Source of the DNA: an uncultured beta proteobacterium
GTDB taxonomy: Bacteria; Pseudomonadota; Gammaproteobacteria; Burkholderiales; Rhodocyclaceae
Length of the DNA: 5,023 nt
Assembly (NCBI GenBank): GCA_903932755.1
Contig: CAIZHL010000537.1
Coordinates: forward strand, 1 to 5,023
Reading direction: 5' to 3'
Part shown: piece by piece, positions 43 through 4,577 of the stretch
Layout of the letters: every line of letters begins with the position of its first letter
Position numbering within the stretch: the first letter of the stretch is position 1
Notes under the pieces: generated by a model
The model's database searches: none
What the model was told of the DNA's origin: nothing
Seen by the model: the letters and a program-made list of their open reading frames with translations, nothing else
Position numbers and translations under genes: made by a program

Positions 43-270
43 TTAATGGAGATGCGGATCGATTACAAACTCCATGAACCAGGCGACGTGGCCGAGTTCC
101 CACAGCGGCGGATTGATGATGTCGAGGCAGGGTACCTGCCGCGGGTCAGGTGATGTGTCAGGCGGCCAGGCCGCCCAGTCGTCGAGCAGGCTGATCGTAT
201 AATCGCGCGCATCCTGCAGTGCTTCGGCAAGCAGGCTTTTTCCGGCAGTCCTCAGATCAGGCGTGTCCAT
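43..270 (-). CDS. senA: SenA/EgtB-like selenoneine synthase, N-terminal part only (truncated or frameshifted)
   Basis: Encodes 75 residues that look like the start of a DinB-type domain of the EgtB/SenA family. In this family a non-haem iron enzyme joins hercynine to a thiol (EgtB) or a selenosugar (SenA). The key stretch is residues 53-66, NPPLWELGHVAWFM, where His61 matches the first metal-ligand histidine of the family. The other two iron-ligand histidines and the whole C-terminal FGE-sulfatase-like domain are missing, because family members are usually around 400 residues and this frame meets TAA at 45-43. The ATG at 270 is preceded by GGAGGG (281-286, minus strand) at 10 nt spacing, so the start is well supported. 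Assignment to SenA rather than EgtB rests on the adjacent senB and senC, not on this fragment itself. The stop lies in an AT-rich patch, and a -1 frame continuation is possible (see 1-42). It may be a pseudogene, an assembly error or a contig-end artefact. Confidence 0.7.
   Translation of the reverse strand: MDTPDLRTAGKSLLAEALQDARDYTISLLDDWAAWPPDTSPDPRQVPCLDIINPPLWELGHVAWFMEFVIDPHLH
198..203 (+). promoter_or_regulatory. Candidate -10 element for senB-senC, inside senA
   Basis: A perfect TATAAT on the plus strand, 59 bp upstream of the senB GTG, inside the senA coding sequence (the codons for Asp-Tyr-Thr). Such a hexamer is uncommon in GC-rich coding DNA. No convincing -35 hexamer lies at 16-18 bp upstream and there is no TGn extension, so an activator would probably be needed. 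Sequence match only. Confidence 0.35.
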
Positions 271-1228
271 CGAATCTCATCCCTCCGTCGCCATTATCAG
301 CCCGGCGCTGGCCAGTGCCAACAACGGCAACTGGCATACCGCACGGCGCTGGGCGCGTTGCCTGGCGCCCAGCGCGCGGGTGGAGATAGCACAGGAGTGG
401 CGTGGCGCCAGCGCCGACTTTTTGATTGCGCTGCACGCCCGCCGCTCGGCGCCGTCGATCGCCGCCTTCGCCGGGCGCCATCCGGAGCGTCCGCTGGTGG
501 TGGTGCTGACCGGGACCGATCTTTACCGCGACATCGCCACGGATGCGGCGGCTCAGCGGTCGCTGGCGCTGGCCAGTCGGCTCGTGGTGTTGCAGGCGGA
601 AGGCGTGCGGGCCCTGCCGCCCGAGTATGCGGCGAAGACCACGGTGATCTACCAGTCGGCGCGCAGCCTGCTGCCGGGGCGGCGCAGCCGGCGCCATTTC
701 GACCTGGCGCTGATCGGCCACATGCGTCCCGAGAAGGATCCGCTGACCGCCCTGCGTGCGCTGCGCCTGCTGCCGGCCGACCTGCCGGTGCGGCTGTTCC
801 ATGTCGGCGGCGAACTCGATCCTGCACTGGCGGCCGAGGTGCGCGCCCTGGGCGCGACCGAGCCGCGCTATCGCTGGCTCGGCCCGCTGTCGCAGGCGGA
901 AACCCGCCAGCGCCTCAAGCGTTGCCGCCTGCTGCTGCTGCCTTCGCTCATGGAAGGCGGCGCCAACGTGCTGATCGAGGCCGTGACCAGCGGCGTGCCG
1001 GTACTGGGCAGCGACATTCCCGGCAATCGTGGCATGCTCGGCGCGGCTTACCCGGGCTGGTTTCCGACGGGCGATGCGGCGGCGCTGGCGGCAATGATTT
1101 CCCGCGCCGTGCGCGATCCCGCCTGGTACGCCGGCTTGCACCGGCACTGCGCCGACAGGGTATCCTTGTTCTCCCCGGCGCAGGAATGCGCCGCCGTCCG
1201 CAGTCTCCTCGCAATGACAAGGTTATAA
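263..1228 (+). CDS. senB: SenB-type selenosugar synthase (glycosyltransferase, GT-B fold)
   Basis: A 321-residue glycosyltransferase-like protein. Characterised SenB proteins use selenophosphate and a UDP-sugar (UDP-GlcNAc and related) to make a 1-seleno-sugar, the selenium donor for SenA. Visible motifs are an N-terminal strand VAIISPALASANNGNW (9-24) as in the TIGR04348-type putative glycosyltransferases, TGTDLYRD (83-90), GHMRPEKDP (152-160), and a C-terminal GT4-like E-x7-E motif with Glu231 and Glu239 in EGGANVLIEA, followed by SGVPVLGSDIPGNRG (243-257). There is no signal peptide or membrane segment, so it is cytosolic. The GTG at 263 is the only ATG/GTG/TTG/CTG start between the upstream in-frame stop at 200-202 and the conserved N-terminal strand; its Shine-Dalgarno is weak. 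The 5' end overlaps senA head to head by 8 bp. The stop TAA is 2 nt before senC, indicating one transcript and likely translational coupling. Function is inferred from family and context. Confidence 0.85.
   Translation: MSIESHPSVAIISPALASANNGNWHTARRWARCLAPSARVEIAQEWRGASADFLIALHARRSAPSIAAFAGRHPERPLVVVLTGTDLYRDIATDAAAQRSLALASRLVVLQAEGVRALPPEYAAKTTVIYQSARSLLPGRRSRRHFDLALIGHMRPEKDPLTALRALRLLPADLPVRLFHVGGELDPALAAEVRALGATEPRYRWLGPLSQAETRQRLKRCRLLLLPSLMEGGANVLIEAVTSGVPVLGSDIPGNRGMLGAAYPGWFPTGDAAALAAMISRAVRDPAWYAGLHRHCADRVSLFSPAQECAAVRSLLAMTRL
281..286 (-). promoter_or_regulatory. Ribosome binding site of senA
   Basis: The minus strand reads GGAGGG here, ending 10 nt before the ATG at 270. It is a near-consensus Shine-Dalgarno sequence at slightly long spacing, and it lies inside the senB coding region. 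It fixes the senA start at 270. Confidence 0.65.
293..321 (-). promoter_or_regulatory. Candidate sigma70 promoter for senA, inside senB
   Basis: On the minus strand, TTGGCA (321-316) and GATAAT (298-293) are separated by exactly 17 nt. Each hexamer matches the sigma70 consensus at five of six positions. Transcription would begin near 286, putting the senA Shine-Dalgarno at the very 5' end of the mRNA, which is tight. Because senA and senB overlap at their starts, a senA promoter has to lie inside senB, and this is the best candidate. Sequence match only. Confidence 0.45.
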
Positions 1229-1230
1229 AA

Positions 1231-2295
1231 ATGAACTCCCCCGGAATTCCCGCAGCACCGGTCCGCCTCACTTCTTTCAGCCACGGCGGCGGCTGCGGCT
1301 GCAAGGTGGCGCCCGGCCTGCTCACCGAAATCCTGCGCGGTGTGCGCAACTTTCCGGTGCCGAAGGAACTCATGGTCGGCATCGAAACCGCCGACGACGC
1401 GGCGGTGTATCGCCTCAACGACGAGCAGGCGCTGATCGCCACGACGGATTTCTTCATGCCCATCGTCGACGATCCCTACGACTTCGGCCGCATCGCCGCG
1501 ACCAATGCGATCAGCGACGTGTATGCCATGGGCGGTACCCCGATCATGGCCCTGGCCCTGGTCGGCATGCCGATCGACAAGCTGCCGCTGGAAGTGATCG
1601 GCAAGATCCTCGAAGGCGGCGAAAGCGTCTGCGCCGCGGCCGGCATTCCCATCGCCGGGGGCCACACCATCGATTCCGTGGAGCCGATCTACGGTCTGGT
1701 GGTGATGGGCCTGGTCCATCCGGACAAGGTCAAGACCAATGCCGGCGCCCGTGCCGGCGACGTGCTGGTCCTCGGCAAGCCGCTCGGCGTCGGCGTCATG
1801 TCGGCGGCGCTGAAGAAGGGCGCGCTCGATGCCGGCGGCTATGCCGCGATGATCGCCAGCACGACAAAGCTCAACACGCCGGGCCGCCACCTTGCGCATC
1901 TCGATGGCGTACATGCGCTGACCGACATCACCGGCTTCGGCCTGCTCGGTCACCTGCTCGAAGTCTGCCGCGGGGCAAAGCTTTCCGGCGTTCTCGACAT
2001 GGCGGCGGTGCCGCTGCTGGCCGACGTCGAGCGCCTGGCGACTGCGGGCTACATCACCGGCGCCTCGGCGCGCAACTGGATGGCCTACGGCGACGATGTG
2101 GCCCTGGATCCGGCGATCTCCGCCATGCAGCGCGCCCTGCTGACCGATCCGCAGACCAGCGGTGGCCTGCTGGTGGCCTGCGCGCCCGGGGCCGTCGATC
2201 AGGTGCTGGAGATGTTCCGCAATGAGGGCTTCGCCGCGGCCACCGTGGTGGGCCGGCTGGAAGCCGGGCCTGCTCAGGTGCGCGTGCTGCCCTGA
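1231..2295 (+). CDS. senC: Selenophosphate synthetase (selenide, water dikinase), SenC/SelD family
   Basis: A 354-residue protein, close to the usual length of SelD. It makes selenophosphate from selenide and ATP, with AMP and phosphate as by-products. It matches E. coli SelD along its whole length as I recall that sequence: glycine-rich GGGCGCK (19-25), with Cys22 equivalent to catalytic Cys17 and Lys25 to Lys20. Mg/ATP-binding aspartates are in ADDAAVY (54-60, Asp56), TTDFF (71-75, Asp73), TNAISD (91-96, Asp96) and TDITGFGLLGH (231-241, Asp232). Also present are AGGHTID (142-148) and DPQTSGGLL (306-314). The active-site residue is Cys, not selenocysteine. The ATG at 1231 follows AAGG (1219-1222) at 8 nt. 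The position 2 nt after senB suggests it feeds selenophosphate to SenB, hence senC. If it is the only copy in the genome it could also supply tRNA or selenocysteine pathways, and selD would be an equally correct name. Its 3' end overlaps the convergent egtD by 22 bp. Confidence 0.92.
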   Translation: MNSPGIPAAPVRLTSFSHGGGCGCKVAPGLLTEILRGVRNFPVPKELMVGIETADDAAVYRLNDEQALIATTDFFMPIVDDPYDFGRIAATNAISDVYAMGGTPIMALALVGMPIDKLPLEVIGKILEGGESVCAAAGIPIAGGHTIDSVEPIYGLVVMGLVHPDKVKTNAGARAGDVLVLGKPLGVGVMSAALKKGALDAGGYAAMIASTTKLNTPGRHLAHLDGVHALTDITGFGLLGHLLEVCRGAKLSGVLDMAAVPLLADVERLATAGYITGASARNWMAYGDDVALDPAISAMQRALLTDPQTSGGLLVACAPGAVDQVLEMFRNEGFAAATVVGRLEAGPAQVRVLP

Positions 2296-3272
2296 CGGGC
2301 GAAAAACAGCGCAAACCAGCCGCGCGGGTCGGTCCACATGCGGATGTCGGCAAATCCGGCCTCCGTCAGCAGGGTACTGAATCCGTCCGGCGAATACTTG
2401 TAGGAGTTTTCGGTGTGGATCCGCTCGCCGGCGGCAAAGCGCCGGATGCGGCGCCCGGACCCATCCGGCCAGCCGGCAGCGATGTCGCGCCTTGCCTCCA
2501 GATGCATTTCAATGCGCGCGGCGGCCTCGTTGAAAAAGGCCACGTGCTGCCATTCACCGATGTCGAAGTCGGCGTCGAGCCGGGCGTTGACGTGCCGCAG
2601 CAGGTTGCGGTTGAAGGCGGCGGTGACGCCGAGGGCGTCGTCATAGGCGGCATCGAGCAGCGCTTTTTCCTTGATCAGGTCGACCCCGATCAGGAGGCCG
2701 CCGGTGACGTCCATCTGTCCGGCCAGCCGCTCGAGGAAGGCGCGGGCATCGTGCGGGTTGAAATTGCCGATGCTGGAACCGGGATAGAAGAACATGCGCC
2801 GCTGCGGCGGCAGATCGTCAGGCAGTTTCAGTTCATCGGTGAAATCGAGGCCCAGTCCGGTCATGTCAATGGCCGGCAATTCGCGCTTGAGGTTCTGCAG
2901 CGAATCGCGCAGGAACTCGACCGAAATATCGACCGCGACGTAGCGTGCCGGAAGGACGCCGGCATGGAACAGTTTGCCGGCTTTGGCGCAACTGCCGCAA
3001 CCGAGGTCGATCAGCGTGCAGCCGGCACCCAGTGCTTCGCGGATGGCGGGCAGGTGCTCGCTGAAGATCGCGGCTTCGGTGCGGGTAGGGTAGTACTCCG
3101 GCAATTCGGTGATGGCCTCGAACAGGCGCGAACCGAGCGGGTCGTAAAAGAACTTGGGTGCGATCGTCGCTTGCGGCAGCAGCAAGCCGGCAGCAAGTTC
3201 TTCGCGCAAACGGGCCTTCTGGCGCGGCGAATCCCAGTCCAGAAGCTGCAGCAATTTGATTCCGGGGGTCAT
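2274..3272 (-). CDS. egtD: L-histidine N-alpha-methyltransferase EgtD (hercynine synthase)
   Basis: A 332-residue SAM-dependent methyltransferase (Methyltransf_33/EgtD family), close to the usual length of about 320. It trimethylates histidine to hercynine, the common precursor of ergothioneine and selenoneine. Visible motifs are KFFYDPLGSRLFEAI (40-54), PEYYPTRTE (58-66), SAM loop DLGCGSCAKAG (89-99), YVAVDIS (111-117, Asp115), FYPGSSIGNF (162-171), GVDLIKE (196-202), AYDDALGVTAAFN (209-221) and TENSYKYS (287-294). Compared with the mycobacterial enzyme, Asn170, Tyr210, Glu288 and Ser290 fall where the histidine-binding Asn166, Tyr206, Glu282 and Ser284 are expected (recalled, not aligned). 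The frame is open up to 3332, but the extra 20 residues lie over the end of the upstream gene and look unlike the family. The ATG at 3272, one base after that gene's TGA, is the sensible start and implies translational coupling. The 3' end overlaps senC. Cytosolic. Confidence 0.93.
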   Translation of the reverse strand: MTPGIKLLQLLDWDSPRQKARLREELAAGLLLPQATIAPKFFYDPLGSRLFEAITELPEYYPTRTEAAIFSEHLPAIREALGAGCTLIDLGCGSCAKAGKLFHAGVLPARYVAVDISVEFLRDSLQNLKRELPAIDMTGLGLDFTDELKLPDDLPPQRRMFFYPGSSIGNFNPHDARAFLERLAGQMDVTGGLLIGVDLIKEKALLDAAYDDALGVTAAFNRNLLRHVNARLDADFDIGEWQHVAFFNEAAARIEMHLEARRDIAAGWPDGSGRRIRRFAAGERIHTENSYKYSPDGFSTLLTEAGFADIRMWTDPRGWFALFFARQGSTRT

Positions 3273-3273
3273 C

Positions 3274-3984
3274 TCAGTCGGCCAGCAGCAAGAATACGGT
3301 GGGGCGCCTGTCCAGGTCGGGCGCCGCGCCACGCTGCCAGTCGGACATGCGGCGCGTGGCGATCCTTTCGCCGGGAAGGCTCAGATCGGTCGCCAGGCAC
3401 AGGCGCGTCTTCAGCCGGCAGTTGGCCAGCAGGGCTTTGAACAGTGCGCTGTTGCGGTAGGGAGTCTCGATGAATATCTGGGTTTGCCGGTTGCGGGCCG
3501 ATTCGTCCTCGAGTGCCACGATGCAACGGCCGCGCTCCGGTTCGCGCGCTGGCAGGTAGCCGTGGAAGGCGAAGCGCTGGCCCTCCAGTCCGGAGCCCAT
3601 CAGTGCCAGCAGCAGCGAGGACGGACCGATCAGCGGCTTGACGGTGATGCCCAGTTCGTGGGCACGGCGCACCAGCAAGGCGCCGGGATCGGCCACTGCC
3701 GGACAGCCTGCTTCGGACATCAGGCCGAGGTCGTGGCCGGCAGCCAGGGGCGCCAACAGGCGCTCGATGTCGGCAGGCGTGAGCGTGTCAGGCAATTGCT
3801 CGATCGCCAGCTCGCGCAGCGGCAGCGGATGGCCGAGCCGTTTGAGTTCGGCGCGCGCCGTCTTGGCATTCTCGGCGACGAAATGCGTCAGCCGGCAGGC
3901 GGCCTCGCGCGCCGTTGCGGGCAGGTAGTTTTCCCAGGGCGTGTCGCCGAGGGCGACGGGGAGCAGCCAGAGTGCGCCGGGCAT
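3274..3984 (-). CDS. SAM-dependent methyltransferase of the tetrapyrrole methylase/RsmI family
   Basis: A 236-residue protein related to RsmI, the 16S rRNA C1402 ribose 2'-O-methyltransferase, but shorter and clearly diverged. It starts GALWLLPVALGD (3-14), where RsmI has a GTLYIVPTPIGN-type strand. It then shows FVAENAKTAR (35-44) in place of AEDTRHT, MSEAGCPAVADPG (89-101) like the VSDAGTPLINDPG SAM-binding loop, LIGPSS (118-123), the GYLPAR block (142-147) and FIETPYRN (171-178) in place of FYESTHR. It lacks the C-terminal extension of true RsmI (about 280 residues). The gene pair maf-methylase recurs in betaproteobacteria as far as I recall, so it is probably a distinct subfamily with an unassigned substrate. 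The ATG at 3984 begins the conserved region and lies 11 nt after the maf stop; an upstream in-frame ATG at 4035 would overlap maf and add an Arg-rich, non-family leader. The TGA is one base before egtD. Confidence 0.85.
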   Translation of the reverse strand: MPGALWLLPVALGDTPWENYLPATAREAACRLTHFVAENAKTARAELKRLGHPLPLRELAIEQLPDTLTPADIERLLAPLAAGHDLGLMSEAGCPAVADPGALLVRRAHELGITVKPLIGPSSLLLALMGSGLEGQRFAFHGYLPAREPERGRCIVALEDESARNRQTQIFIETPYRNSALFKALLANCRLKTRLCLATDLSLPGERIATRRMSDWQRGAAPDLDRRPTVFLLLAD

Positions 3985-3995
3985 GGGTGCTGGGC

Positions 3996-4577
3996 TTAGG
4001 GCAGGGCCACGCCTTCGGCGCGCAGCATGTCGCACAGCGCGATCAGCGGCAGGCCGATCAGTGCATTGGGGTCATCGCCGCGCAGATAGGACAGGAGGGA
4101 AATGCCGAGGCCTTCGGATTTCGCGCTGCCGGCGCAGTTGAGCGCATCTTCCTTGTCCAGGTAGGCGTCGATTTCGGCATCGCCGAGGTCGCGAAAGCCT
4201 ACCTGCGTATCCACGCAGGACAATTGGACACGATCCGTGGCGCTGTTCAAGAGGCACAGCCCCGTGTGGAAGACCACCTCTTTTCCGCGCATCAGGCGCA
4301 GCTGGGCGATGGCATTCTCGCGGCTCCCCGGCTTGCCGAAGCGATGGTCGCCCTGGGCGGCCACCTGGTCGGAGCCGATGATCAGGGCGTCGGGGTAGCG
4401 TTTTACGACGGCGCGGGCCTTGGCTTCGGCAAGTCGCAGGGCGGTGGCAGCGGGGATTTCTTCGGGCAGCGCGGACTCGTCGGCTTCGGGCGCAATGGTC
4501 TCGAAGGGGATCTGCAGGCGCGCCAGAAGTTCGCGGCGGAAGGACGAGGTAGAGGCAAGAACGAGCAGGCGCGGCAT
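3996..4577 (-). CDS. yceF: Maf/YceF-type nucleotide pyrophosphatase (7-methyl-GTP pyrophosphatase)
   Basis: A 193-residue Maf-family protein, full length, strongly resembling E. coli YceF, which hydrolyses 7-methyl-GTP to the monophosphate and diphosphate and is thought to keep modified nucleotides out of nucleic acids. Visible are [11 protein letters not shown] (7-17), with the family's S-x-x-R-R phosphate-binding signature, IIGSDQV (66-72) with the catalytic base Asp70, GKP (81-83), [11 protein letters not shown] (103-113), [15 protein letters not shown] (147-161) with conserved Lys and Glu, and [16 protein letters not shown] (167-182). The last block is nearly identical to YceF and supports the m7GTP subclass over the dTTP/UTP (YhdE) subclass. 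The ATG at 4577 gives the canonical N-terminus; the Shine-Dalgarno is weak. It is divergent from yceD, as in E. coli, and first in the run maf-methylase-egtD. Confidence 0.93.

Follow-up and report, generated by a model that had tools for sequence, protein, structure and literature searches.

A probable selenoneine locus with overlapping senA and senB starts, a resident selenophosphate synthetase, and an egtD tied to a maf gene run

The DNA analyzed here (the window) is a 5,023-base stretch that makes up an entire contig (G000:C536) of a 2.8-Mb, 603-contig, 70%-complete assembly. It very probably carries a selenoneine biosynthesis (sen) locus with a whole senB, a resident selD acting as senC, and an egtD that closes a maf/rsmI-like gene run, together with a senA cut at the contig end and with candidate promoters of senA and senB embedded in each other's coding sequences. 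The first-pass annotation of this DNA had recognized a sen locus with SenB, SenC/SelD, and EgtD beside a divergent SenA, in a pathway already described. That identification stands, as SenB, SelD, and EgtD each pass a curated cut-off and the pathway is known from Variovorax, according to PMC9814287, PMC10702425, and PMC10891094. What appears to be new is the overlap of the senA and senB starts, which, judging from the aligned loci, goes along with low synonymous variation and a conserved TATAAT. The findings also assign this pathway to bacteria resembling Sulfuritalea and Gallionella.

In the predicted chemistry, SelD/SenC would convert selenide and ATP into selenophosphate, from which SenB, together with a UDP-sugar, would make a selenosugar (a reaction described in the excerpts of PMC10891094 and PMC10702425). 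EgtD would trimethylate histidine to hercynine, as the excerpt of PMC10903977 describes, and a whole SenA, such as the relatives possess, would join selenosugar and hercynine into selenoneine (PMC9814287). The genes for SenB, SelD/SenC, and EgtD are whole in the window, and their products are predicted to be active.

Comparisons drew on 31 genomes of the genus, on 395 genomes of the family, on a family sample for cooccurrence of SenB and EgtD (22 genomes with SenB above the cut-off and 79 without), and on 80 SenB loci from named genomes, 20 closest to the window and 60 more distant. The window and its 20 closest relatives form the set of 21 window-type loci. Gene layouts of the relatives' loci were made by tblastn. 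The gene coordinates and strands listed earlier were rechecked and hold, with senB followed by selD on the plus strand and the senA start, egtD, an RsmI-related gene, and maf on the minus strand:

1–68, no strand: unrelated contig-end sequence with 44% GC, set apart by composition and with short matches only
69–270, minus: senA, first 68 codons only (match to NF041186; full SenA of relatives)
198–203, plus: TATAAT, candidate -10 element of senBC inside senA codons 23-25, kept in 19/21 loci
263–270, no strand: 8-bp head-to-head overlap of the senA and senB starts, GTGTCCAT, in a form common to 14/21 loci
263–1228, plus: senB, selenosugar synthase (Se-glycosyltransferase) (TIGR04348; SenB structures)
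293–321, minus: TTGGCA-17-GATAAT, candidate senA promoter inside senB codons 11-20 (promoter-like match, 10/12)
1231–2295, plus: senC/selD, selenophosphate synthetase, Cys form GGGCGCK (NF002098, TIGR00476, 3u0o)
2274–3272, minus: egtD, histidine N-alpha-methyltransferase, for hercynine supply (TIGR03438, PF10017, 4pim)
3274–4035, minus: RsmI-related methyltransferase, a conserved neighbor (TIGR00096 at 74 bits, below the cut-off of 168)
3996–4577, minus: Maf-family nucleotide pyrophosphatase (TIGR00172 at 158 bits, cut-off 117)

The whole senB and the interrupted senA

The product of senB scores 414 bits against TIGR04348, "selenosugar synthase SenB" (cut-off 300), and matches the solved SenB structures 8fbx, 8jjn, 8jjq, and 8k5u with E values from 2.4e-84 (8fbx) to 7e-80. 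Read from the 8fbx alignment, it keeps N17, N20, T23, H58, R155, K158, E231, and E239, which cover the key positions, including the catalytic K158, given in the excerpts of PMC10891094 and PMC10702425. The concern that this protein might be an ordinary GT4 enzyme is thereby answered, since it passes an equivalog model of its own, aligns closely with 8fbx, and retains the published catalytic positions. One residue counts against this reading: the published motif EGGAHV reads EGGANV here, as it does in all 21 window-type loci. The closest sequences point to Sulfuritalea-like bacteria, with 87% identity to the SenB of a Sulfuritalea metagenome-assembled genome and with 17 of the 20 closest SenB records named Sulfuritalea, Rhodocyclaceae, or Rhodocyclales. 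An account of SenB as selenate reducing, found in the excerpt of PMC11929427, contradicts the other papers and was not used.

SenB exceeds its cut-off in 30 of the 31 genus genomes. Among these, G242 (99% complete) encodes a full SenB (L160, G242:C16, 8073-9035; 419 bits, cut-off 300) about 1 kb from selA and yields no match to SenA or EgtD; this SenB is perhaps an orphan selenosugar synthase with the selenosugar as its end product. In seven Polaromonas loci (L068, L071, L077, L078, L091, L096, and L107), some 2.2 kb separates senA from senB, enough to accommodate further genes between them.

Divergent from senB, the open reading frame at 43-270 on the minus strand (75 amino acids [aa]) reads as SenA for 68 codons, from base 270 down to 69, with the motif LWELGHVAWF, in agreement with the SenA-type N terminus noted in the first-pass annotation. 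It matches positions 1-57 of NF041186 at 53 bits (E 2.8e-14), below the cut-off of 420, as expected because only a fragment is present; a Pfam search of the fragment returned no match. SenA, EgtB, and the ovoselenol enzyme are related, and 68 codons are all that the contig holds of the cut gene, which could in principle come from EgtB or from a histidine-acting ovoselenol enzyme and so mark an ergothioneine or ovoselenol locus. We regard this as highly improbable, given that the sole NCBIfam match of the fragment is SenA and that its close relatives are full SenAs above the 420-bit cut-off. Moreover, we know of no role for SenB or SelD in ergothioneine synthesis or for EgtD in the ovoselenol route from histidine. 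The cut gene is thus best taken as senA.

Through codon 67/68, the fragment aligns with the complete SenA proteins (394-400 aa) found in seven relatives. At base 69, SenA homology ends sharply: bases 1-68 are unlike the SenA genes of all seven relatives, have 44% GC compared with 67% for the rest (none of the 4,887 other 68-nucleotide [nt] windows is as low), and bring a stop at 43-45 into the senA frame. Because the window is the whole contig, senA is cut at a contig end and not at an arbitrary window edge. Full SenA exceeds the cut-off in 28 of the 31 genus genomes, the others being G242, with nothing, G395, with two weak matches to the C-terminal part only, and the genome of the window, with the fragment. 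The window's own 70%-complete assembly holds no further SenA or FGE-domain piece, and the FGE Pfam model does detect the whole SenA of the relatives L032 and L042 (112-115 bits), two observations that weigh against a working pathway in this genome. The first-pass annotation had named the lack of any complete SenA-type protein as an outcome that would refute it. None is present in this assembly, but with only 70% completeness and senA severed by the contig boundary, the observation does not decide the matter.

Bases 1-68 may stem from chimeric assembly at the contig end or may border an insertion, and senA in this genome is accordingly either mis-assembled or broken. In the latter case, an insertion or rearrangement edged at bases 1-68 would have disrupted the gene, and the cell would make hercynine and the selenosugar but no selenoneine. 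The sharp homology break at base 69, the foreign composition of the tail, and the lack of another SenA piece in the assembly are consistent with such an event. We nonetheless consider it rather doubtful, as the break lies 68 nt from a contig end, a place prone to assembly errors, in a 70%-complete assembly of 603 contigs, and as the tail has neither a second genomic copy (bases 1-75 were searched in the own genome) nor a long relative in the 395 family genomes; for these two latter reasons, no mobile element is shown. Among the matches listed, bases 1-69 found counterparts at E values up to 1 in 139 of the 395 family genomes, including the window's own, and the 29 matching loci examined besides the window aligned over only 12-25 bases in unlike surroundings. 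The best family match listed covers 21/21 bases (an E value of 2.4e-4 when a single genome is searched), roughly as expected by chance across 400 genomes, and these matches are therefore read as chance. The contig end also shares 22 bases with three Rhizobium plasmids (E 0.1), and its 31-base core had no exact match in viral contigs. An insertion-sequence end may have caused the cut but gains no support from the single copy in the genome and the short, chance-like family matches. We thus retain the reading of a sen locus whose senA is interrupted at the end of the contig.

Overlapping senA and senB starts

The senA and senB genes start head to head. Their start codons overlap by 8 bp (GTGTCCAT and variants) in 14 of the 21 window-type loci, the likelier starts of the other seven (L034-L038, L048, and L050) share the palindrome CATG, and 6 nt separate the senA start codon from the first in-frame senB ATG in five loci of the Gallionella type. 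Overlapping starts leave no intergenic DNA for promoters, and each promoter therefore likely lies within the first codons of the other gene. On the senB strand, TATAAT occurs 65 bp before the senB start in 19 of the 21 loci and in 5/5 Gallionella-type loci. At the Tyr codon overlapping this motif, TAT is used in 19/19, the sole all-TAT column among 14 conserved Tyr columns, at which TAT accounts for 34% of codons. On the senA strand, TTGGCA-17-GATAAT scores 10/12 as a promoter, with GATAAT kept in 18/21 loci; the window has 2 promoter-like sites, compared with a mean of 0.5 in shuffles. Both candidate elements fall where synonymous variation is low. In 9-codon windows, senA residues 19-27 are the lowest of 385 windows, and senB residues 16-24 and 11-19 are the lowest and third lowest of 315; in 12-codon windows, the senB dip ranks 1/311. 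The simplest reading of these patterns is that two promoters are mutually embedded, each inside the first codons of the other gene, which would likely be an unusual arrangement of control signals.

Several observations count against embedded promoters. The TATAAT is lost in two window-type loci (L044 and L065) and occurs in 0/6 of the type-2 sen loci of the same genus described below and in 4/65 other rows, two of which (L015 and L018) are this genome and G069. No recognizable -35 element accompanies the senB -10 candidate, a site that the promoter scan did not list. In 12-codon windows the senA dip ranks 2/377 rather than first, and the rsmI-like gene, which faces no promoter, has a similar dip at its start (1/244), where it overlaps the end of maf. 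Furthermore, the loci share ancestry, which inflates counts of this kind.

Gene starts are often biased in synonymous codon use, and constraints on translation or RNA could by themselves lower synonymous variation at the senA and senB starts. The missing -35 of senB and the dip in the rsmI-like gene, albeit at the overlap with maf, would fit this explanation. It seems to us possible but on balance unlikely, because the other genes of the same loci show no such dip in 12-codon windows of their first 30 codons (senC 38/341, egtD 155/322, maf 23/182, and yceD 70/160) and because the senA dip, at residues 18-30, lies past the very start and covers the TATAAT. Mutually embedded promoters hence remain our favored interpretation. 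A limited literature search found no published work on control of the sen genes, for which the interlocked starts offer a small and precise target.

The resident selD and the maf-linked egtD

SelD begins 2 nt behind senB (gap at 1229-1230), as the first-pass annotation had described, and meets the convergent egtD in a 22-nt tail-to-tail overlap. It scores 534 bits against the SelD model NF002098 (cut-off 299) and 432 bits against TIGR00476 (cut-off 125), and it aligns with E. coli SelD (3u0o; E 1.3e-94), SHGGGCGCK being placed on SHGAGCGCK. The catalytic Cys/Sec and Lys of the GCGCK loop, which we take to be C17 and K20 of the E. coli enzyme, are both kept. In 66 of the 80 SenB loci, a SelD is found no more than 400 nt behind senB, and in two more the contig ends first. 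The 12 others (e.g., L058, L060, L066, and L070) have at least 400 nt behind senB without a SelD of the window's kind there.

Eight genus genomes (L161 and L163-L169) have a SelD 82-91% identical to that of the window beside the rsmI-like gene, followed by maf and then, except at the contig end of L169, by yceD. No senA or senB was found on these eight SelD stretches, one of which (L167) has only 500 nt on the senB side. The SelD tree comprised 100 rows; it omitted 14 of the 60 other SenB loci, whose SelD was absent, too short, or too unlike, and 1/27 family SelDs, and it contained no sen-free SelDs of Burkholderiales. In this tree, the window, 19 same-type SenCs, and the eight senAB-free genus SelDs form one clade (28 rows, 99/93), three of the eight being interspersed with the SenCs. 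The remaining sen-linked SelDs, 46 in all, fall outside this clade, and 44 of them group with three family SelDs (95/96). One step deeper, a 78-row group (99/98) holds all of these and excludes 22 of the 26 family SelDs; sen and this branch of SelDs may therefore have a long-standing association. The SelD phylogeny foreseen earlier thus gives a split answer: the nearest kin are genus SelDs, including eight free of senAB, but the deeper group of 78 out of 100 rows contains all sen-linked SelDs. SenC is the resident SelD of the genus, held in its own chromosomal place. Either senAB joined the resident selD or a senABC unit arrived and later lost senAB in some genomes; both orders may apply, as the tree fits either.

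SelD could instead serve only selenocysteine synthesis or tRNA selenation, its place beside senB being accidental. SelU/MnmH likewise consumes selenophosphate. Its position next to the rsmI-like gene in eight genus genomes without senAB at that site, and the presence of SelA in the genome of the window, would agree with this. We find it improbable, as senB runs in the same direction and ends 2 nt before SelD, as SelD follows senB so regularly across the 80 loci, and as three genomes (G181, 99% complete, G282, and G328) have a window-type sen locus with this SelD and no SelA match. SelD acting as SenC is therefore preferred, which does not restrict it to that role. Of the 31 genus genomes, 15 have just one SelD above the cut-off. 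SelA is present in 12 of them, and for 10 of those 12 the lone SelD belongs to the sen locus; one of the 10 is G069, a single-contig genome with a completeness rating of 100%. In those 10 genomes, one enzyme would have to supply both SelA and, provided that sen is functional, SenB. Window-type SenC thus probably also supplies selenocysteine synthesis via SelA, as far as gene content can tell. In complete relatives with one SelD, SelA, and sen, such as G069, the sharing of selenophosphate between protein and small molecule is directly testable. Counting against such sharing in the window's own genome, which has SelA on C308, is a second SelD fused to an oxidoreductase on C487, so the window SelD need not be the sole source of selenophosphate there.

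That fusion (L162) lies on a 7-kb contig without any sen gene. In another assembly (G317), a SelD 79% identical to that of the window (L178, G317:C64) lies about 3 kb from egtD, and a second locus (L179), on another contig of that assembly, has senA, senB, and a partial SelD with 90% identity, indicating either two SelDs or two mixed strains.

The egtD gene scores 366 bits against TIGR03438 (cut-off 290.9), with further matches to PF10017 (E 2.8e-101) and structure 4pim (E 6.8e-58). A single nucleotide separates the stop of the rsmI-like gene from the egtD start. Lying codirectional with the rsmI-like gene and maf, egtD closes their run and is probably expressed together with them, from the maf side, and not with senBC. 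Pfam had no match for the RsmI-related protein (3274-4035), and an Rfam search of the window found no family.

The first-pass annotation singled out egtD beside sen as specific to this locus, a claim that has to be given up: EgtD lies near sen on one contig, within a few kilobases, in 21 of the 30 SenB-bearing genus genomes (16 window-type and 5 type-2), egtD occurs in 11 of the 60 more distant loci, and here it ends the maf/rsmI-like run. In five of the 30 (G256, G282, G305, G386, and G398), senC is followed directly by the rsmI-like gene and EgtD is on another contig; in G317 and G378, EgtD is also on another contig, with contig ends intervening, and G397 and G242 have no EgtD. Over the 80 SenB loci, many on stretches that end early, egtD is on the stretch in 24 (13 of the 20 closest and the 11 distant ones), and among the 46 loci flanked by 3.5 kb or more at either end, 13 have it. 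In the family sample, EgtD exceeds the cut-off in 20 of 22 SenB genomes and in 20 of 79 others (Fisher p 2.8e-8), and the two genes are close together on one contig in 12 of the 22. The EgtD tree (30 rows; 33 were offered and 3 dropped as repeats or broken), for which the program warns of long branches, places the window-type EgtDs in one clade (100/99) and all sen-linked EgtDs, except the very long-branched L056, together (24 rows, 100/98) and apart from five unlinked genus EgtDs. Two of these unlinked EgtDs adjoin a SenA/EgtB-like gene (G282; 378.6 bits, cut-off 420) or its remains (G398). The latter match (L172, G398:C36:12574-13359) has two stops and looks decayed, and the gene in G282 (L170) is its whole relative.

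Thus, egtD regularly accompanies sen, and the five genomes in which it is missing beside sen encode a different EgtD. Its recurrence with sen in differing layouts favors hercynine as the genuine partner substrate. The word EgtD is absent from the main texts of PMC10891094, PMC10702425, PMC11448449, and PMC11929427 and appears once in that of PMC10903977, for ergothioneine.

Taken together, these elements allow a more speculative model, to which we give somewhat less than even weight: senA and senB sit beside a shared resident selD, their two embedded promoters form one control point for which the selenium arm and the coupling enzyme compete or which they share, and egtD is tied to a housekeeping run. 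If true, the allocation of selenium to selenocysteine or selenoneine would be determined by one segment of about 125 bp (198-321).

Comparison with known sen and ergothioneine loci

Like the sen cluster of Variovorax paradoxus DSM 30034 (SenA, SenB, and SenC; Kayrouz et al. 2022), as presented in PMC9814287, PMC10702425, and PMC10891094, this locus combines SenB and SelD/SenC with SenA and has the same predicted chemistry. It differs from that cluster in having egtD inside the locus, the resident SelD of the genus as SenC, EGGANV instead of EGGAHV in SenB, and a senA that is divergent, overlaps senB at the start, and is incomplete in this contig.

The type-2 sen loci of the same genus (L154-L159, in G369, G151, G205, G294, G378, and G400) also comprise senA, senB, and a SelD, with a SenB only 48-53% identical to that of the window. 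In five of the six, egtD adjoins senA, whereas the sixth contig (L158) ends there; egtD is thus on the senA side, unlike in the window. In these loci, SelD forms the C-terminal portion of a fusion protein (about 755 aa) whose other portion is a pyridine-nucleotide oxidoreductase (TIGR03169, a model run on L154 only). Ergothioneine-type egtB-egtD loci share the EgtD family and the hercynine intermediate with the window, but in the EgtD tree the sen-linked proteins are separate from those of the genus that are not linked to sen.

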